DNA of 31,388 nucleotides from a virus. A program made the position numbers and the translations under genes. Location: the IMG/VR virus record IMGVR_UViG_3300031974_002514, positions 1 to 31,388 of that record; one strand, written 5' to 3'. Each line of letters begins with the position of its first letter. The first letter of the stretch is position 1. Below the pieces are notes generated by a model. It worked only from the letters and a program-made list of their open reading frames with translations. It was not told the origin of the DNA and did not search any database. Shown piece by piece: positions 3,571 through 28,143 of the stretch.

Positions 3571-3669
3571 TCTTCTTATATATTCCGAGTTTGGTGCAAA
3601 TCTATGGTAATTTTTTTGGTGCAAAATAACACTAGGATATTCTTATTACTTGGTATATATAATGTATCT

Positions 3670-3685
3670 GAAGAACTTGTTCTTC
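3670..3685. promoter_or_regulatory. Perfect 7-bp dyad GAAGAAC-TT-GTTCTTC
   Basis: A perfect inverted repeat with a two-base centre sits 57 bases before the tRNA half, just after a TATAAT at 3658-3663 that lacks a good -35 box. The AACTTGTTC portion (3674-3682) reappears inverted at 3809-3817 on the other side of the core. It could be an excisionase or regulator site, or an operator over a weak promoter. No T-run follows, so it is not a standard terminator. Confidence 0.4.
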
Positions 3686-3741
3686 GGTGATGTGGTGACA
3701 GCACAAATTAAGCTTTGCACCACTTTTGCACCAAACGGTCT

Positions 3742-3782
3742 GGGGGTGTAGCTCAGCTTGGTTAGAGCGCCTGCCTGTCACG
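3742..3782 (+). other. 5' half of tRNA-Asp(GTC): attP core, not a complete tRNA
   Basis: Acceptor strand GGGGGTG (3742-3748), TA, D-arm GCTC...GAGC (3751-3768), anticodon-stem strand CCTGC (3770-3774) and loop CTGTCAC (3775-3781) with anticodon GTC follow the bacterial tRNA-Asp consensus. From about 3783 the sequence stops following a tRNA, and the 3' anticodon strand, T arm and acceptor 3' strand are missing. It is therefore a fragment marking the crossover target in a host tRNA-Asp gene, with exchange in or just before the anticodon loop end. Confidence 0.85.
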
Positions 3783-3817: not shown

Positions 3818-3845
3818 TTTCCTAACTTAAAAAAAGGATAGGAAA
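3818..3845. repeat. Inverted repeat TTTCCTA / TAGGAAA
   Basis: Arms at 3818-3824 and 3839-3845 are perfectly complementary over seven bases with a 14-base A-rich spacer. It lies between the attP core and the right-hand arm repeats. It may be a protein-binding dyad or a weak hairpin in the integrase leader. Its function is not determined by the sequence. Confidence 0.3.
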
Positions 3846-4042
3846 TGCTTAACGTTGTACAATCCCATATAATTGAAGTATCGGATTGCAGTTGTAAAAT
3901 TCTTGCACCAGTTCTGCACCACTTTTGCATCAGGTATTTTTATATAAAAAATAAAAAACCGAAAATGCCGAACAAGCTAAGAACTATTGCCTTGAGTGTT
4001 ACGAACTCTTGCCAATTAAGCTCAGTTTCCTAAAGATAAACT

Positions 4043-5263
4043 ATGTATAGAGTAACTCCAAAACGAGACGGTTATATTGTTCTAAGAAAATCTGACCGTA
4101 AACAAACCCACAAAGGTTTGTTCCATACAAAAAAACAAGCTGTTGAACATATGAACAGCTTAATTACAGAAAATGCTGTAACAGAAAAAAGCGACTATTT
4201 ATTTGTAGATGCTTTTTCATCTTGGATTAGCGAGCGAGAAGCTGTTTCTGCTAATTCTGATGCTGCATTAACTAAAGGTGCTATTGAGCCTTATATCAAT
4301 GATTTAAAGCTCCGTATAAAGCCGTATATGCCTAATATCGCTTTATCTGAGTTCAACTATCTTGTTATGAAAAAGTTTTTATTAGACTGTTTTAAAGCAG
4401 GATATAAGTTTAAGCGTTTACAACGTACGGTTAGGAACATTAAGACGTTTCTAAACCATATGGCTAAAGAAGGTAAGAAGCCATGCCTGGATATGCTTAA
4501 ATTTAAGATTGAAGATGTTGAAGCTATTGTTCCAGCAGATTATGAGCAACGCTTTGAGAAGGAAACCCAGGTCATTGATGAAACATCTGTAGGCGATATG
4601 CTTACCAAATTAAATGCAAATAAAGATGAGGATTTCAAGTCAGCATTAACATTTGCAATATTTGTAATGATGTTTTTATTTGGTTTAAGGCGTTCTGAAA
4701 TTAAAGGCTTAAAACCTGAGCATATAAATATTGATGAAGGTTATGTATCTATCAAAGGTATTTATATTAAGGGTGAAGGTGGATATTTAAGACGTACTAA
4801 AAACAGAGGCAGTTTCAGAAATATTGATATTGATGAAAAAGCTGCTGCATTTTTTAAATGGTGGTTTTTAGTATTAAAAAAATATCGACCTCATACACTA
4901 TGGTTATTTCCAACAATTAAAAATACTGGAGGGCCTATTTCAGATAGAGGTCTTTCAAATATTTTGTGGTCCACTTATGCTGCTAATGGTTTAGCAAAAA
5001 TAGAGTGGAAGTCTGGTCATGTTATAGTGATTGATAGTCCATTTAAAGGCGCTCCGATGAAAACTTGGAGACATCGATTAGCTACATTGCTTGTTGACAA
5101 TATGGCTTTTGATAAACATTTAACTACAAATTTTGTAAAGGCTAGAATTGGTCATACAAGATTTACTACTACTCAAGATATTTACGGAAATCATAACCGT
5201 AAAGCTTCTGCTAAATCAACTGCATCAGTTGCAAAACTTATTGGAACTTCGAAAATTCTTTAG
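4043..5263 (+). CDS. int: Tyrosine-family site-specific integrase
   Basis: This 406-residue recombinase joins attP to attB through a covalent phosphotyrosine intermediate. The N-terminal 45 residues look like an arm-binding domain (YRVTPKRDGYIVLRKS). A SAM-like core-binding domain spans roughly 50-150, and the catalytic domain 175-400. Predicted catalytic residues are Arg216 (FGLRRSEIKGL), Lys253 (RTKNRGSFRNI), Arg343 in KTWRHRLATLL, His371 (IGHTRF) and Tyr381 (QDIYGNH). The first His of the usual HxxR box is Lys340. The gene lies directly beside attP and faces the leftward operon convergently. No good ribosome binding site precedes the ATG, and the 3845-4033 ORF upstream looks spurious. Confidence 0.95.
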   Translation: MYRVTPKRDGYIVLRKSDRKQTHKGLFHTKKQAVEHMNSLITENAVTEKSDYLFVDAFSSWISEREAVSANSDAALTKGAIEPYINDLKLRIKPYMPNIALSEFNYLVMKKFLLDCFKAGYKFKRLQRTVRNIKTFLNHMAKEGKKPCLDMLKFKIEDVEAIVPADYEQRFEKETQVIDETSVGDMLTKLNANKDEDFKSALTFAIFVMMFLFGLRRSEIKGLKPEHINIDEGYVSIKGIYIKGEGGYLRRTKNRGSFRNIDIDEKAAAFFKWWFLVLKKYRPHTLWLFPTIKNTGGPISDRGLSNILWSTYAANGLAKIEWKSGHVIVIDSPFKGAPMKTWRHRLATLLVDNMAFDKHLTTNFVKARIGHTRFTTTQDIYGNHNRKASAKSTASVAKLIGTSKIL

Positions 5264-8860: not shown

Positions 8861-9015
8861 AAAAATACTCCTATTGCTGCGATAATTACAATCCAGTCTC
8901 TAACTGTTTGTAATTTTCTAGTTTGTAGTTTTTGCTTTTGGTGTTGGTCGTAAAATTCTTGCAAACGATAATCTTTCATTGCATTTACAACTTCACGCCT
9001 TATCTTAGTTTCCAT
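8827..9015 (-). CDS. Tail-anchored small membrane protein (62 aa)
   Basis: A basic helical N-terminal part (residues 1-40) is followed by one hydrophobic segment, DWIVIIAAIGVFLWVTKTYS (40-59). GGAGG lies five bases before the ATG. It overlaps the exonuclease gene upstream by 16 bases and the annealing protein downstream by 34, so the three are tightly coupled. A membrane peptide between the two recombination genes is unusual. It may modulate host recombination or membrane state, but no family is recognised. Confidence 0.6.
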   Translation of the reverse strand: METKIRREVVNAMKDYRLQEFYDQHQKQKLQTRKLQTVRDWIVIIAAIGVFLWVTKTYSLVQ

Positions 9016-10025
9016 AGTTCCTCCGCTAGTTTTAGATTGTCGTCACCAATATTATTCCATGCCCATGGGTGGTCTCGGTTCATGTCCACACTATCAATCA
9101 TACTTGTAATGAGAACGTTACGGTCAAACTCCTGGTACATAGATAAGAGTTTTTCTCTTCGTCTAAAAATATTTAATAATTGCTCATATAATTTTTTCAT
9201 TCCTTCGACTGTTAAATGAATACAATTGCTGCTATCAAAAATTTTAAAATCATTTGCGTTTGCATAAAATAATTTTACAGGAGCTTTAAAGTCATAAACC
9301 GCTGCATAATATGCACATTGCATCAAATGGTTATAAGAAGGCAGCGTAGGAGCAGTAACTTTAATAAAACTTCTGCTTCCGTCCTTTTTAATTTTGCCAA
9401 GCTTACTCCATTGTGTCTTCATCTCACAGATAACAACAGGTGAAGAAGAACCGCTAAAAACTGCGAGGTCTGTACGTCCAGTTAACGGCATAAGAAGTGA
9501 AGACTTCTTTTGTGTAACTGAAATGGATTGCTCAGCGATGATGGAGTTAAAAGAACTAACGCTGCCTAATATTTCCTCGATGCAAAGGAAACTGTTATTA
9601 ATTACTGCTGGTAACTCTTCCAGGTATTTAAATTTTTTATCCTGGTCTTTTACATCTTCAGCTTGATACTCACTGAACATATTTACAGCTTCTGTAATTA
9701 AATCTTTTTTATCTCTGCCTTTTTTAAAATTATCTTGTGGCTCTAATTTTTTGTTAGGACCAATTCTATAAATTTTATCGGCATAAAAATTTTGAACCGC
9801 TTCACCAGCTGCAACACCTGCTTTCATTTGAGAATTACTTGGAAGCAAACGTCTTTGTTCCTGGGTCAATACCAGGTAACGGAATATCCATGCAGCATCA
9901 ATTAAAGAAGCTTGAGTTGGAGACCAGTGGTGGATTTTTAATTTTTTTGCAAACTCAGGAAGAACTTCATTATCTGTTAATGGGTCTTCCAACACATTTT
10001 GATTTGTTTTAGTATTTTCTAACAT
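9000..10025 (-). CDS. RecB/Cas4-like PD-(D/E)XK exonuclease
   Basis: The 341-residue protein has the layout of the RecB/Cas4-like nuclease family. The N-terminal SPTQASLIDAAWIFRYLVL is followed by the GVAAGEAVQNFYADK helix. Then come GRTDLAVF with Asp186, VVICEMKTQ with Glu201 and Lys203, and HLMQCAYYAAVY with Gln236 and Tyr240 (motif QxxxY). No Cys cluster for an iron-sulfur site is seen. It probably resects double-stranded ends to make single strands for the annealing protein. No ribosome binding site precedes the ATG at 10025; the 87-base upstream gap has two dyads and a possible -10 box, so this may begin a transcription unit. Confidence 0.82.
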   Translation of the reverse strand: MLENTKTNQNVLEDPLTDNEVLPEFAKKLKIHHWSPTQASLIDAAWIFRYLVLTQEQRRLLPSNSQMKAGVAAGEAVQNFYADKIYRIGPNKKLEPQDNFKKGRDKKDLITEAVNMFSEYQAEDVKDQDKKFKYLEELPAVINNSFLCIEEILGSVSSFNSIIAEQSISVTQKKSSLLMPLTGRTDLAVFSGSSSPVVICEMKTQWSKLGKIKKDGSRSFIKVTAPTLPSYNHLMQCAYYAAVYDFKAPVKLFYANANDFKIFDSSNCIHLTVEGMKKLYEQLLNIFRRREKLLSMYQEFDRNVLITSMIDSVDMNRDHPWAWNNIGDDNLKLAEELWKLR

Positions 10026-10112: not shown

Positions 10113-10406
10113 TTAGTTGGCGTTTTCGGCTTTTTCGGCTTTTTTAAAATCTAAAACGTTTGAATTTTTTGGTTCTTTTTTTCTTTTGCGTTTGTAAGCA
10201 TAAAGGACGTTGCTATCTTGTTCGTTCCACTTGTCTAAATATTTAATCGGAAACCAACGTCTGCCTCTGAAAATAATAAATTGAATTGGATTATAAGTTT
10301 TGTCTCCATAAACATAATATTGAAAAGTCGTCCTTGGCATATCTAAATAAATAGCAGCATCTTTAGCATTACAACAATCCATGTCTTTTATTTTTTTTAT
10401 TTTCAT
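10113..10406 (-). CDS. Excisionase-like (MerR/HTH_17-type) DNA-binding protein
   Basis: The 97-residue protein contains CCNAKDAAIYLDMPRTTFQY, then YVYGDKTYNPIQFIIFRGRR and WFPIKYLDKWNE (residues 11-62), the 'A..LG.....T...W...G..P....G.R..F....L..W' pattern of excisionase-type winged HTH proteins. A basic tail (KRKRKKEP) follows. Such proteins bend DNA at attP to direct excision or act as small activators. Its start overlaps the stop of the 509-residue regulator gene (ATGA), so the two are made together. Xis identity is likely from family and context but not proven; attP is about 6 kb away. Confidence 0.65.
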   Translation of the reverse strand: MKIKKIKDMDCCNAKDAAIYLDMPRTTFQYYVYGDKTYNPIQFIIFRGRRWFPIKYLDKWNEQDSNVLYAYKRKRKKEPKNSNVLDFKKAEKAENAN

Positions 10407-11932
10407 GCTCTTTTTTTCGCTTGGCTTATGTAATCTTTTAATTCATCTTTAAATTTTAAATTTTCTAATTCATTGTCTTTAACACTAATAAATTTATCCA
10501 ATTCTTGTATTATTTTTTCAAATTCTTTAACTTGTGTTTTAGTTTTTTCTTTTAAACGAGCTTGTTGCTCAATAAGTTTTCTATTTTCTATGTCTCTAAT
10601 TCTTTCTTGTATTTGTTGTGCTTTTTTAAAAGCATTAATAGAATTTTTTCTAGCACCTTTTAATACACTTAAATTTACAATTCCAACAATAGGTGATGAA
10701 AAAAATATTGATGAATTATTCTTAATAACTAAATCTTTAAAATTACCTTCTGCATATGGGTCAGGATTTGCAAATCTTACTTTACCTCTTACATTTTCAT
10801 AAATACCAATGTGATAAGTTTTGGAATGAAAATCAAATTCTGGTACTTCTGTTTCTATTCCTACGACACAAAGTTCACCAACTTTTCCTTCATCTTGTTT
10901 ACTTTCATAATAAAATAAAACTTGGTTATGTAAGAAAGAACCTGGAGACACAACTTTTACAGCTCTTATGTCTGGTCTATAAATATCTCTTGGACACGCA
11001 ACAAAATTTTCCTCTGCTTGTGCAGCTACTTCACCTTGTGCGTAAGGAGCATCTGCGGTTACTCCATGTATAAAATCAACATGACCCCAAATTTTTACTA
11101 AAGGTTTTGGAAACAAAATATCAGATGGGTCGCAACCAAAGTATTCCCCATATTTAATTGCTTGCTCTCTTGTTATATCTCTTTCACCTTTTAAATGTTT
11201 GGTAATCATAGATGTATCAGCAAAACCTAATTTTTTAGCGAGTTCTTCTGAATTTAAAAATTCTTCTGCTTCTTTAAATTTATCAACTAATAATGAATTA
11301 GCGTTTCTGTAATTAAAAATACCAAGCTCAATTAATTCTTTTTGTTTTTTATCTAAATTAACATTCACATTTTTCGCTACCCTGTATTGTTGGGTATATT
11401 TTCCAGCAATAAAGTTTCCTGCATCATGCCAATTAAAAAGTTTTTCATTATCTGTTTTTATTTCAACAAGTTCACCATTTTGTCTAAAAGCATCAACAGT
11501 AGTTCTTCCAGTTAATAATGTAGGTCTTCTTTTTTCATCTGCTTCTTGTCTAGCATACAGCACTTGCAATTTTGCTTTACTCCAATGCTCTTTAAATTTT
11601 TCTAATTTAAATAGAGGAAGCCTTTTAACAACTTGATAATAAACTTTTTCTCTTTCTCCATTTTCTAAAATTATGTTTGTAATAACTGTATCGTCTCTAT
11701 TTGTTTTGCTAAAAATTTTAACAAGAACTGACTTTTCCCCCATGTAAAGTTGATAATGAGAATAAACTAAAATTGCGCCTCTGTTTGGTGCGCTTGGTTC
11801 GTAATTGATAAAAACTTTATCTTTTTCGTAAGTACGTGTTGCTAAAATTTCTTTTGATAAAGGTTTTTTCCTCATATTTTCTGATATAATCTTTTTTGCC
11901 TGCAAGTCAATAATGCAGTTAATGTTTGACAA
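10403..11932 (-). CDS. Large HTH plus S24-like repressor candidate with coiled-coil tail
   Basis: The 509-residue protein has four parts: an unrecognised N-terminal region (1-220), a Cro/CI-type HTH at about 226-275 (LNSEELAKKLGFADTSMITK, then LKGERDITREQAIKYGEYFG), an S24/LexA-like beta region at 279-421 (VKIWGHVDFIHG...DIRAVKVVSPGSFLHNQ...VGELCVVGI), and a coiled coil at 433-507. The usual GDSM motif of self-cleaving repressors is replaced by SPGSF, and no clear catalytic Lys is seen, so autocleavage is doubtful. It sits at the divergent junction expected for a lysogeny repressor. The frame starts at TTG (11932); ATG at 11875 is an alternative. Known CI-type repressors are usually 200-240 residues. 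Confidence 0.65.
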   Translation of the reverse strand: MSNINCIIDLQAKKIISENMRKKPLSKEILATRTYEKDKVFINYEPSAPNRGAILVYSHYQLYMGEKSVLVKIFSKTNRDDTVITNIILENGEREKVYYQVVKRLPLFKLEKFKEHWSKAKLQVLYARQEADEKRRPTLLTGRTTVDAFRQNGELVEIKTDNEKLFNWHDAGNFIAGKYTQQYRVAKNVNVNLDKKQKELIELGIFNYRNANSLLVDKFKEAEEFLNSEELAKKLGFADTSMITKHLKGERDITREQAIKYGEYFGCDPSDILFPKPLVKIWGHVDFIHGVTADAPYAQGEVAAQAEENFVACPRDIYRPDIRAVKVVSPGSFLHNQVLFYYESKQDEGKVGELCVVGIETEVPEFDFHSKTYHIGIYENVRGKVRFANPDPYAEGNFKDLVIKNNSSIFFSSPIVGIVNLSVLKGARKNSINAFKKAQQIQERIRDIENRKLIEQQARLKEKTKTQVKEFEKIIQELDKFISVKDNELENLKFKDELKDYISQAKKRA

Positions 11933-23800: not shown

Positions 23801-25459
23801 ATGGCATTAAAAATTTATCAATCACAAGCTAAGTTAAATCAAGGAAACATTCCTCAAGTAAAAGGTTTAGCTGTTCCTATTGGTTTAGCACAAACAGCAT
23901 CTGAAGGTGTTAAATCTATTACCAAAGCTATCGCTGATTATAATAAAAATAATAAAGATACGATTGACGATAACAGAGCAACAGAAATTATTATTGATGC
24001 TAAAAAGAAAATTAATAGTGTTATTGTAAATAGTAAAAACAATCCCAATATTAATGAGGTAGAAAAGAACTTAGATTTAGCTTTTAATTCTATTGATTTA
24101 ACTAAAGAAAATAGCGGTGTTAAAAAATTAATTAAAGATTGGTCTAATAAATATAAAATTCAAGTTTCAGGAACTGTATTTAAAAATTCAGCTTCTAAGT
24201 TATTTGCAGACACCCAGGATACACAAAAGAAAAAATTAAATGGCTGGGCAGTTGATTTATCTAGTAATGACGCAATGGTTAGAGCGGCAGCATCAAATAA
24301 TTTAAAAAGCTATTTTAACAATCCTAATAACGCAAAATATTTTTCTGATTTTAATGAAACAAAAAATGACACTTATGCTTTAGCAAAAAAACTCCAGGTC
24401 AAATTTGATACTAAAAATAATCCAACTAAATATTTAAATGAAGTTGAGCTTTATAAAAAGTTTGGAGAACAAGAAGGTTCTAAAATTTACCAGCAAGCAA
24501 AAAATGCTTTGATTAGTCAAAATGTTAAAAATAGTAATTTACTTATTCAAAGAGAACAAAACGAAATTAACCAACAAGTTTTTAACTTTACGGATATTGC
24601 AAACAGAATTGTTCTTTCACAAGGCGATAAAAGTAATGCAGAGTTATTAGCAAAAGTTCCATCATTAGATGACATTTACGATTATTATCAAGAAGATAAA
24701 ATTAACAGCGCACAATACGAAGCATTAATTGATTTATATACAAACCCAAACAAAACCAGTGACGCAGATTTAATTACTTTAATTAATAATCAAATTGTTA
24801 TTGCTGAAACCGTTCAAGAAATAGACGAGTTACAAAATTATAATTCTACAGCTAAAGAAGTTTTAAAAGATGTAAATTTAACTGACATTACAACAATCAA
24901 TAAAGTTTTAGCTCAAGTTAAATCTGACCCAAAAAAACATAATGATTATAAAAATTATTTAAAAACTTTAAAAATCAATATGGGTGATATTGGCGGAGCG
25001 ATGGATATATTTACTGGCGGTGGTGGTATCACAACAGAAGATAAACTTAATACGCAACAAGCTGAAATTATTTATAACAGACATTTTGCAGAAACTGGTA
25101 ATGCAGAAACAGCTTATTTAAAAACAATACAAAATTTTAAAGATAAAGTTCCTTCAGTTTTATCTAACCAGGTAAAACCATTTAATTATCAATTTACAGA
25201 TTTAAAACAAATGGTGGCTGATAACCCAGGTAAAAATGTTTTTGATATGGCAAGAGACGATTTAGCAAACCGAGTAAAAAAAGGTGAGTTAAGTAAAGAA
25301 GCTTTATTCATTGATTTACAACGTCTCGATATGATGGAAGATATTTACGACATTAGAAAAAAATTAGGTGATGAAGAATATGTATTTAAATCACCTGATA
25401 GTACCGAGTTTAGTTTTGAAAATCTTATGAAACAAAAACGAATAGACGATAAAAAATAA
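23801..25459 (+). CDS. Internal virion (core) protein, T7 gp15-position
   Basis: The 552-residue protein is Asn/Lys-rich and mainly helical, with a start MALKIYQSQAKLNQGNIPQV. It has no catalytic motif I can see. Its position two bases after the gp14-like gene and before the two very large proteins, and its size, match the internal core protein C (gp15-like) of podoviruses, which binds the DNA channel and is ejected with DNA. A Gly-rich loop (MGDIGGAMDIFTGGGGITTE) lies at about residues 392-411. Sequence similarity to T7 is not obvious, so this is by position. Confidence 0.6.
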   Translation: MALKIYQSQAKLNQGNIPQVKGLAVPIGLAQTASEGVKSITKAIADYNKNNKDTIDDNRATEIIIDAKKKINSVIVNSKNNPNINEVEKNLDLAFNSIDLTKENSGVKKLIKDWSNKYKIQVSGTVFKNSASKLFADTQDTQKKKLNGWAVDLSSNDAMVRAAASNNLKSYFNNPNNAKYFSDFNETKNDTYALAKKLQVKFDTKNNPTKYLNEVELYKKFGEQEGSKIYQQAKNALISQNVKNSNLLIQREQNEINQQVFNFTDIANRIVLSQGDKSNAELLAKVPSLDDIYDYYQEDKINSAQYEALIDLYTNPNKTSDADLITLINNQIVIAETVQEIDELQNYNSTAKEVLKDVNLTDITTINKVLAQVKSDPKKHNDYKNYLKTLKINMGDIGGAMDIFTGGGGITTEDKLNTQQAEIIYNRHFAETGNAETAYLKTIQNFKDKVPSVLSNQVKPFNYQFTDLKQMVADNPGKNVFDMARDDLANRVKKGELSKEALFIDLQRLDMMEDIYDIRKKLGDEEYVFKSPDSTEFSFENLMKQKRIDDKK

Positions 25460-28143
25460 TGGAAGAAAATTATAATATTTTTGAAGCTGTATATCCAAGC
25501 ATTGAAGCTGATAACAAAAGACAATCAAGAGGTTACGAAACTTTAGTTCGTAATAATATGGATACTGCTGAATTTATGGGTGAACAACCTGATAACGATG
25601 CAGGAGTAATTGATAGAACAATAAAAGGTAATGAGCTAAATTCTTTTATTAAAGATACTGTTGATTTCATTGCATCTATTCCAGCAGATACATTAATAGG
25701 AATTACAAGAGCAGGAGCAAACGTTACTCAAAAAGGAATACAGCTTGGAAGATTTATTGCAGATGAAGCTGGTATTGATTATGCGGTAGATGACTTAACG
25801 GCGATTAATGACAAGATTAATAAATTTAAAGAAGGTTTAAATAAATACCAAGAAGATAGTCCGTTTGTAACAAAGCTATTAAGTTATGGCGCTCAAGAAG
25901 GTTCAGCTGTTTATCCGTTATATAGAAAATTTAAACAAATGGGTGTTCCAAAAAGTTACGCTATAATGTTAGCGTTTGGTATTGGTGGAACATTAGCTTT
26001 AGGACCAGAAGACCAATTAACTTTAGACAGTAAAGCTGCAAAATATTTTAAAGATGTTTTTAAAGTAGAAGAAGGCACACCAGGTGAAGATATTTATAAT
26101 ATGGGGTGGGCTGCATTAGAAAACACTTTTATTGGTAAAGCTTTTGACGAAGTGATTGAAGGTTTACGTTACGGTAAAAAAATTGCTAAAGGTGCAAAAA
26201 TTGACCAGGCAGCGATTGCTGCTGGTGGCGGTGCTACAGCTGGAGCAGTTCTTGAAAAAGTAAATCCTGAAGGACAAATGCTACAAGAACCTAACCAACC
26301 TACATTGCAAGAACCTAACCAACCTACATTGCAAGAACCCCAACAACCAATGTTAAATGAACAACAGGATAACTTCTTAGACGAAAAAAAAAAGTTCGGA
26401 CAAGTCCAAACAGATTACCCACCAGATAATCAGATAGCTGGAGGTTCAGGAATTGCAAAACAGATTTTTAAATCCATGCTTAAAGAAGGTGCAGAGAAAC
26501 TTCCAAACAAAGGAAGTGGCGCACAGTTTTTAGGTCAGTTAAAAAATACTCCAGGCATTAAGGAAGCTGAATTAAAATGGACTGGACTTGATGATTATTT
26601 ACAAAGCAAAAAAACAGTTACAAAAGATGAAATTAAAAATCATTTAGCAAATAATAACTTAGACATTTCTGAAATTAAATTTGGTGGAAAAGGACAAGAA
26701 TTATCTGGTAATCTTTTTGATAGAAAAATATCTTTTGAAAATAAGTATATTGCATTTCAAGAAGAAAGATTAGGTAGAAAGTTTAGTCCCCAAGAAAAAA
26801 GAGCCATTTTAGATAATAATCTTAATTACGATGAAGTTATAGTCCAAGACGCTGAAGACGCTAGTATTTTTAACTCAATACCTTTTAATGTTTTTGATGA
26901 CACCTATACTCGACAAACACAAAGAAGTTTTAATCGAATGAATAAAGGAACATTAACTTTTAGCAACAAAGTTTGGAAAGTGTCAGATTTAGAATTGGAA
27001 AAATATAACTTAGAAAAAGATATTAGAAAAAGTAGAATGCAGAGCAATAAACCAAAATACGAAGAATACACTTCTCCAGGTGGAAAAGATTATACAGAAT
27101 TAGTTTTTAAAATTAAAAATAAAAACAATACAACACCAGTTGTTTTAGAAGGTGAATTTGGAACATTAAAAGGTAATAAAGTTAAAGCTCAACAAAAAAC
27201 AACAATAGATTACATATCACCACATTTTAATAAATTTAATGAAATTGCTCACGTCAGATTTAAAACTAGAGATTTAAACGGTAAAAAAGTTTTAACAGTA
27301 GAAGAAATGCAATCAGATATTCTTCAAGAAAGTAAACGAGAAATGTTTACAAGTTCAAATGCGGTAAATAAATTTGATGAAAAAAAACTTGTAGATTTTC
27401 CATTTAAAAATAATTGGTACGAATTGGTAATGAAAAGATTAATTCGTTACGGTGCAGATAATGACTTTGACGCAATTGCAATACCTAGAGGAAAAGTAGC
27501 TCAAAACAGATATGGTCAAAAAGGAGATTTTATTAACTCTATTAAGGTTAGAAGAGTTGAAGTTTCAAATGAAGGTAAATCTATGCCTGACTTACCAGTT
27601 GCAGCAGATGAAATTACATTAGATTTTTTAAGTAAAGATGGAACAGTTTTAAATTCATTACCTGACCCAAATATAAACATTCTAAGAGACAGTTTAAAAG
27701 ACTATAAAATAAAAGCAGAAGACCTTGATAACTTAGAAGATTTTTTAAACAATACTCAAAAATCAAATTCAGGAGAAAGAACATTAGAATTTGAGGTAGG
27801 AGATAAAAAGAAGTTTGTAGGAAAAGGTAAAGGAAAAATAGAACTTTACGATAAAGCTATTCCAAGTTTCTTAAAAAAATATGGTAAGAAATGGAACGCA
27901 AAAGTTTATGATGATAAATTCACTGTAGATGATTTAAATATCGATAGCGAATTTGCACCTGATAGAATGGTAGAAATACCAGTCACTATAATTAAAATTA
28001 CAGATGATATGAAAAAATCCGTACAAGAAGACGGACAAGCATTGTTTAATTACTTTGGTATTGGAACTGCTGGAGCTGCTGTCTCCCAAGGTGTCCTAGA
28101 TAGTCAAGGCAACAATACTATTTCACAATCGACAAATAATTAG
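25459..28143 (+). CDS. Large internal virion protein with polyvalent-protein-type domain
   Basis: The 894-residue protein has a helical N-terminus with a hydrophobic stretch at about 168-182, a Pro/Gln-rich linker of octapeptide repeats at 276-299, then a region TGLDDYLQSKKTVTKDEIKN. Further on are HVRFKTRDLNGKKVLTVEEM QSDI and PFKNNWYELVMKRLIRYGAD NDFDAIAI. The 'K.VL..EE.QSD..Q' and 'P....W.EL..KR..RY......D.IA.' motifs are typical of large phage polyvalent proteins delivered with DNA. The C-terminus is Gly/Ala with a Gln/Asn/Ser-rich tail. It starts at the stop of the preceding gene (TAATG). Which enzymatic activity, if any, it has is unknown. Confidence 0.65.
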   Translation: MEENYNIFEAVYPSIEADNKRQSRGYETLVRNNMDTAEFMGEQPDNDAGVIDRTIKGNELNSFIKDTVDFIASIPADTLIGITRAGANVTQKGIQLGRFIADEAGIDYAVDDLTAINDKINKFKEGLNKYQEDSPFVTKLLSYGAQEGSAVYPLYRKFKQMGVPKSYAIMLAFGIGGTLALGPEDQLTLDSKAAKYFKDVFKVEEGTPGEDIYNMGWAALENTFIGKAFDEVIEGLRYGKKIAKGAKIDQAAIAAGGGATAGAVLEKVNPEGQMLQEPNQPTLQEPNQPTLQEPQQPMLNEQQDNFLDEKKKFGQVQTDYPPDNQIAGGSGIAKQIFKSMLKEGAEKLPNKGSGAQFLGQLKNTPGIKEAELKWTGLDDYLQSKKTVTKDEIKNHLANNNLDISEIKFGGKGQELSGNLFDRKISFENKYIAFQEERLGRKFSPQEKRAILDNNLNYDEVIVQDAEDASIFNSIPFNVFDDTYTRQTQRSFNRMNKGTLTFSNKVWKVSDLELEKYNLEKDIRKSRMQSNKPKYEEYTSPGGKDYTELVFKIKNKNNTTPVVLEGEFGTLKGNKVKAQQKTTIDYISPHFNKFNEIAHVRFKTRDLNGKKVLTVEEMQSDILQESKREMFTSSNAVNKFDEKKLVDFPFKNNWYELVMKRLIRYGADNDFDAIAIPRGKVAQNRYGQKGDFINSIKVRRVEVSNEGKSMPDLPVAADEITLDFLSKDGTVLNSLPDPNINILRDSLKDYKIKAEDLDNLEDFLNNTQKSNSGERTLEFEVGDKKKFVGKGKGKIELYDKAIPSFLKKYGKKWNAKVYDDKFTVDDLNIDSEFAPDRMVEIPVTIIKITDDMKKSVQEDGQALFNYFGIGTAGAAVSQGVLDSQGNNTISQSTNN
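26284..26355 (+). repeat. 24-bp tandem repeat encoding QEPNQPTL
   Basis: Two identical 24-base units at 26284-26307 and 26308-26331 are followed by a diverged third at 26332-26355, coding QEPNQPTL, QEPNQPTL, QEPQQPML. It forms the Pro/Gln linker between the N-terminal part and the polyvalent-type region. Copy number of such repeats can vary between relatives by slippage. Confidence 0.85.

Follow-up and report, generated by a model that had tools for sequence, protein, structure and literature searches.

A tRNA-Asp 5' half as the probable attP core of a temperate SAR11 phage, and 5'-half carriage in its integrase clade

Islands with a tyrosine integrase and a 5' tDNA fragment were reportedly described by Zhao and Williams in 2002 (cited in PMC6563490), and for the archaeal pTN3-like integrases Cossu 2017 and Krupovic and Bamford 2008 are cited (PMC8371274). 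Among the 3,919 islands in Islander, 3' fragments are found in 3,760 and 5' fragments in 159 (PMC4383910), which agrees with the statement in an earlier note on the DNA analysed here that phage attP cores usually copy the 3' part of a tRNA gene. Carriage of the 5' part has also been reported for one thaumarchaeal element among those that target tRNAs (PMC6563490). For the pTN3-like integrases, the tRNA 5' half serves as attB, and the rebuilt tRNA is read from the element side, by what is described as the integrase promoter (PMC8371274). Two other systems bear on the fate of the host tRNA. In tRNA-dependent lysogeny (Guerrero-Bustamante and Hatfull 2024, PMC10865867) the host loses its tRNA, attP having a shared stretch of only about 10 bp, and in ICEKp1 the integrated int is behind the host tRNA promoter, while the excised int is behind a promoter from the element's other end (PMC13023037).

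The attP core, its arms and the integrase

The window, which is the whole 31,388-nt stretch of viral DNA that was analysed, carries at positions 3742–3782 (+) the sequence GGGGGTGTAGCTCAGCTTGGTTAGAGCGCCTGCCTGTCACG, identical to nucleotides 1–41 of tRNA-Asp(GTC), from mature nucleotide 1 to one base beyond the anticodon loop. A search for these 41 bases in host genomes, as the earlier note had proposed, found them exactly in 46 GTDB contigs with SAR11 or Alphaproteobacteria in their titles, where they always continue into the 3' half, confirming that the core is the 5' half of tRNA-Asp and not its 3' end. In 45 of the 46 contigs the 41-mer is the start of a tRNA-Asp called by ARAGORN, and in the other one (L035) the tRNA-Asp is cut by the contig end. 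The same bases are also exact in 11 IMG/VR viral contigs, where the flanks have diverged and continue into non-tRNA sequence; no complete tRNA was found in any of these 11, nor in most relatives. Such exact recurrence, amid differing flanks and with complete tRNAs absent, rules out both chance and an assembly break, and with them the possibility, raised beforehand, that the fragment belongs to a complete tRNA in the true assembly. In the window itself ARAGORN detected no complete tRNA, the core is not followed by a tRNA 3' half, and the match of the core to the Rfam tRNA model reached 17 bits, below the cut-off of 29, with nothing in the window above it. When window positions 3640–3782 were joined in silico to a host 3' half, a normal, well-paired tRNA-Asp was obtained.

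The core is outside int and 260 nt away from it, on the 5' side of a tyrosine integrase of 406 aa (4043–5263, +; PHROG 1 integrase, E 2.7e-27), whose residues R216, K253, R343, H344, H371 and Y381 are of catalytic type and invariant in the family alignment. A 62-codon ORF between core and int (3845–4033, +) overlaps the P' arm sites and is possibly no gene. Terminase, portal-type, major head and tail genes are also encoded by the window phage, based on PHROG matches. Elsewhere in the window, a 341-aa protein (9000–10025, -) gave a weak match to phrog_1706 (CRISPR/Cas system associated, E 1.6e-4), and the large proteins at 10403–11932 (-), 23801–25459 (+) and 25459–28143 (+) gave no PHROG match.

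Short repeats, of the TTGCACCA type in the window, are present on both sides of the core. In the P' arm, three putative arm-type sites were recognised from the sequence on the + strand, TTGCACCA at 3903–3910, CTGCACCA at 3914–3921 and TTGCATCA at 3925–3932. In the P arm, a tandem pair of putative TTGCACCA sites lies next to the core (3715–3722 and 3726–3733, +), and two putative outer sites with the sequence TGGTGCAA were placed on the - strand from the sequence and its conservation in the P-arm alignment, one at 3592–3599, which is an inverted TTGCACCA, and the other at 3617–3624. The spelling of the repeats varies between phages (TGCATCA in L004, TTTCACGA-like in L006, TTACACCA in L007 and TTGTACCA in L009) and agrees within each, and since it changes in step on both arms, phage by phage, including the tandem pair, the repeats are as expected of arm-type integrase sites. 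The window core with these putative sites on both sides is, judged by its sequence, a full attP.

In 12 distinct Asp-type phages the P arm has one order: it begins with outer inverted arm sites, followed by a TA-rich block, then GTGACAG, and then two direct arm sites before the core. The TA-rich block, conserved among phages, contains in the window a TATAAT (3658–3663, +) that is a candidate promoter toward the core and int, with a sigma-70 score not above that of shuffles. The GTGACAG element (3695–3701, +) lies 47 nt before the tRNA start and recurs both in Asp-type phages, at -44 to -66, and in host loci, at -34 to -47. We consider it very probable that 3742–3782 is the core of the attP of a temperate SAR11 phage, a confidence that applies to the whole explanation of integration given below.

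Junctions in lysogens and expression of the rebuilt tRNA

Relatives were gathered by a profile of 21 integrases, with no use of the att site, giving 66 in viral contigs, and 7 of 397 SAR11-family genomes contained integrase relatives. The window phage itself was not found integrated; its integrase gave no match in the ten host genomes first searched, and a search for its family, run without a positive control, found nothing in 385 genomes sampled from the class. Four SAR11 lysogens of relatives, in fragmented genomes, have the predicted joints, two at tRNA-Asp (G186 and G337) and two at tRNA-Asn (G074 and G291). None of the four has attL and attR on one contig, so each prophage is read in pieces and not as a continuous sequence, which is the main weakness of this evidence.

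Uninfected genomes (e.g. L059) have lon, tRNA-Val, tRNA-Asp and nuoA in a row. In G186 and G337, attL reads lon, tRNA-Val, host 5' half, P' and int, and attR reads phage genes, P arm, restored tRNA-Asp and nuoABC. At the tRNA-Asn site, which is valS, tRNA-Cys, tRNA-Asn and an XRE gene when empty (L093 and L094), attL of G074 and G291 reads valS, tRNA-Cys, 5' half of tRNA-Asn and int, and attR reads phage genes, P arm, tRNA-Asn and the XRE gene; the only full-length tRNA-Asn found in these two genomes is located behind the phage arm. The two events foreseen in the earlier note, the joining of the phage 5' half to the host 3' half and the cutting off of the host's own 5' half, are therefore both seen in these junctions, at attR and attL respectively. 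A host 5' fragment in attL with a complete tRNA by the element in attR, the pattern of 5'-tDNA-fragment elements, was thus found in the relatives and not for the window phage.

Sequence differences between host and phage allowed the exchange to be placed. Between the viral contig L114 and lysogen G186, 248 of 250 P-arm bases are identical, as are 199 of 200 in P'. The attL of G186 retains the D-loop variant TTTGG, and its attR has the phage TTGG. For G337 the stem is CCTGC, that of the host, at attL and ATCGC, that of the phage, at attR, placing the exchange within GCCTGTCAC, the anticodon loop and its edge, so that for the relatives a crossover elsewhere is contradicted. In the window, the corresponding parts of the core are the 5' strand of the anticodon stem, CCTGC (3770–3774, +), as putative left core half-site, the G337 markers placing the exchange to the right of the first bases of the stem, and the loop CTGTCAC (3775–3781, +) as the predicted 7-bp overlap, the host and phage 5' halves of G337 differing up to this block.

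In the explanation that we favour, the integrase would exchange strands in the anticodon loop of tRNA-Asp, with the phage supplying nucleotides 1 to about 40. Integration would leave the host 5' half as a dead fragment before the integrase at attL, and at attR a tRNA-Asp with a phage 5' half and a host 3' half would be rebuilt behind the P arm of the phage, from where it would be transcribed. The integrated int would at the same time fall under the host tRNA-Val (or tRNA-Cys) transcription unit, resulting in a promoter swap. On the junctions and markers described, integration of this kind, with the host 5' half displaced and the tRNA rebuilt behind the phage arm, is very likely.

As the rebuilt gene stands behind the P arm, it must be transcribed from there, and expression from phage-side DNA is forced by the geometry, incompleteness of the genomes aside. 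Phage control of this expression, suggested earlier as a possibility, has geometry and conservation in its favour; a promoter was not recognised, as 20 distinct P arms scored a mean of 6.36 with a sigma-70 matrix and their dinucleotide shuffles 6.37, and the matrix was dropped as promoter evidence. A dedicated promoter in the conserved P-arm block could serve int in the free phage and drive the tRNA in the lysogen; read-through from upstream phage genes would be indistinguishable from it. By eye, the Asn-type P arms share TT(G/T)ACA-N17-TAAAnA at -46/-47, a lead only; a similar element is kept by the 3'-half carrier L171, so that it does not mark 5'-half carriers alone. Read as its reverse complement, GTGACAG matches the Asp anticodon loop; pairing of the two as RNA was set aside, being unmatched in Asn and Met phages and with one phage tRNA-Asp having another loop.

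Host scars, spare tRNAs and the integrase clade

SAR11 are the commonest ocean bacteria, and with each integration of the clade an essential tRNA would come to be transcribed from phage-side instead of host sequence. Any loss of the prophage other than exact excision would then endanger the cell unless the phage arm remains, and this need could explain the P-arm scars in SAR11 genomes. In L034 and L049, a decayed tRNA-Asp 5' half, a P arm and an intact tRNA-Asp all follow tRNA-Val, and an integrase search of both host genomes was empty, with no int-bearing prophage. The decayed halves have 30 of 34 and 29 of 33 identical bases, a score reached by none of 500 shuffles, and about 130 bp match the P arm of phage L013 at 113 and 114 of 131 positions. 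These loci have the footprint expected of a 5'-type prophage with a lost interior. A further step, that a dedicated promoter in the phage arm takes over an essential single-copy tRNA from the host promoter, making the lysogen dependent on the prophage end, and that SAR11 keeps the arm after decay as a domesticated tRNA-Asp promoter, is put forward tentatively, at a little under an even chance.

The opposite direction of transfer, in which the P arm upstream of the 5' half was captured from a host tRNA-Asp promoter and is no phage invention, is compatible with the mechanism of integration and is the rival that survives best, although we consider it rather unlikely. A long gap between tRNA-Val and tRNA-Asp is present in 13 of 46 host loci, all with GTGACAG at -34 to -47, and a decayed att copy was detected in L034 and L049 only; the other 11 have the element at -34 to -45 with no att remnant detected, and could be either scars of greater age or an arrangement ancestral in the hosts. 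However, GTGACAG precedes tRNA-Asp in only 8 of 397 Pelagibacterales genomes, one of them a lysogen and two the genomes with scars, tRNA-Val and tRNA-Asp are in tandem in most hosts, and L034 and L049 hold integrase arm sites too. A possible tRNA-Asn scar was observed in host G216 (L189:1201–1500), where tRNA-Asn is not behind tRNA-Cys and TTTTGATTTACAG is present upstream, as in the P arm of HTVC028P.

Integration could also proceed as proposed with a separate phage tRNA supplying the function, as in tRNA-dependent lysogeny. A complete divergent tRNA-Asp is found just downstream of int in one subclade (L104, L110, L113, L137–L141 and G337), and the G186 prophage has another near its other end. 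In G337, the anticodon stem of the hybrid tRNA-Asp (L082:1501–1577) is mispaired, phage ATCGC facing host GCAGG with two mismatches and one wobble, and because of this the backup may matter there. Nevertheless, no second tRNA is present in the window, whose 5' half forms good pairs with the 3' halves of hosts, so with matched hosts the window phage should not need one, and no spare tRNA-Asn was found in the Asn lysogens; as a general account this explanation is improbable. Complete divergent tRNA-Asp genes were located in clade phages at L065:1381–1457 (+), L081:2477–2553 (+) and L104:3901–3977 (-), with GGTGACAG about 40 nt upstream in L065 and L081, as in the attP P arm.

Carriage of the 5' half is the rule in nearly the whole integrase clade and extends to three tRNAs, as judged from the contigs: it lies just before int in nearly all of the 66 relatives with enough upstream DNA, and the integrase is directly 3' of the tRNA half wherever the viral contig includes it. 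The halves are of tRNA-Asp (two stem types), tRNA-Asn (38–40 nt) and tRNA-Met (39 nt). The one cultured member, pelagiphage HTVC028P (MW273921), has a tRNA-Asn 5' half just before int and an integrase 35% identical, and was the sole match of four searched family integrases among 50,697 phage records. A second, shorter copy resembling the 5' half was observed 50–65 nt before int in many relatives (e.g. L101, L104 and L162), being significant in some phages only; it reads TTAGAGYG.., or TAGAGTAGTTGAC for Asn, and seems to follow the target tRNA.

Exceptions to this rule are informative. The Asn-type relative L171 (2406–2479) has a decayed 5' half and carries the 3' half of tRNA-Asn, a change of half inside the clade; L156 and L158 carry the whole tRNA-Asp, and L133 the loop core alone, without GTGACAG. 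In the tree the 5'-half state is on most branches, including a group nearest the 3'-type pair, with long branches and an unsure root. With 5'-half, 3'-half, whole-tRNA and bare-core att sites all in one family, it is possible to trace how the carried half evolved. That the window attP is itself of the ordinary kind, restoring the tRNA 3' part with the 5' match incidental, would agree with the behaviour of most tRNA-targeting elements and with the distant relatives G126 and G349, which adjoin a complete tRNA-Met, the displaced 3' halves of G126 lying about 35 kb away as in an ordinary 3'-type element. The missing 3' half after the window core and the opposite junctions in all four lysogens make it very improbable. 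Phages often carry tRNA genes, and one subclade has a complete tRNA-Asp elsewhere, but that the fragment is a phage tRNA gene in decay or a break in the assembly, with no link to integration, has a negligible chance given end points shared by many independent contigs, 100% host identity as far as the loop, arm sites flanking the core, the adjacent int and the lysogen junctions.

Comparison with described systems

Carriage of a 5' half is in itself known but rare, and the SAR11-phage case is a clade-wide variant of it; no description for SAR11 phages was found in the literature, in which the main pelagiphage isolation papers were incompletely covered. Elements of this kind may be mislabelled by prophage finders that look for 3' tRNA repeats. 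HTVC028P resembles the window phage in its related integrase with a tRNA 5' half just before int, and differs in its target, tRNA-Asn.

As in the 5'-tDNA islands of Islander, the element carries the 5' part and displaces the host 5' end, and the anticodon-loop crossover is a known subsite; the SAR11 phages differ in the near clade-wide rule, the three tRNAs and the apparent fossil scars in hosts. The pTN3-like integrases also use the tRNA 5' half as attB and place element-side sequence upstream of the rebuilt tRNA, but they are archaeal, with att inside int and int split on integration (PMC8371274), in contrast to the whole int and separate core of the window. Like phages with tRNA-dependent lysogeny (PMC10865867), one SAR11-phage subclade has a complete tRNA of the same isotype, with one mispaired hybrid; unlike them, SAR11 phages carry the 5' half and rebuild the gene, and the window phage lacks a complete tRNA of the target isotype, its core giving a well-paired hybrid with a host 3' half. 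In ICEKp1, int likewise comes under the host tRNA unit on integration, but the host tRNA keeps its own promoter (PMC13023037), whereas in the SAR11 lysogens the sequence upstream of the tRNA changes too.
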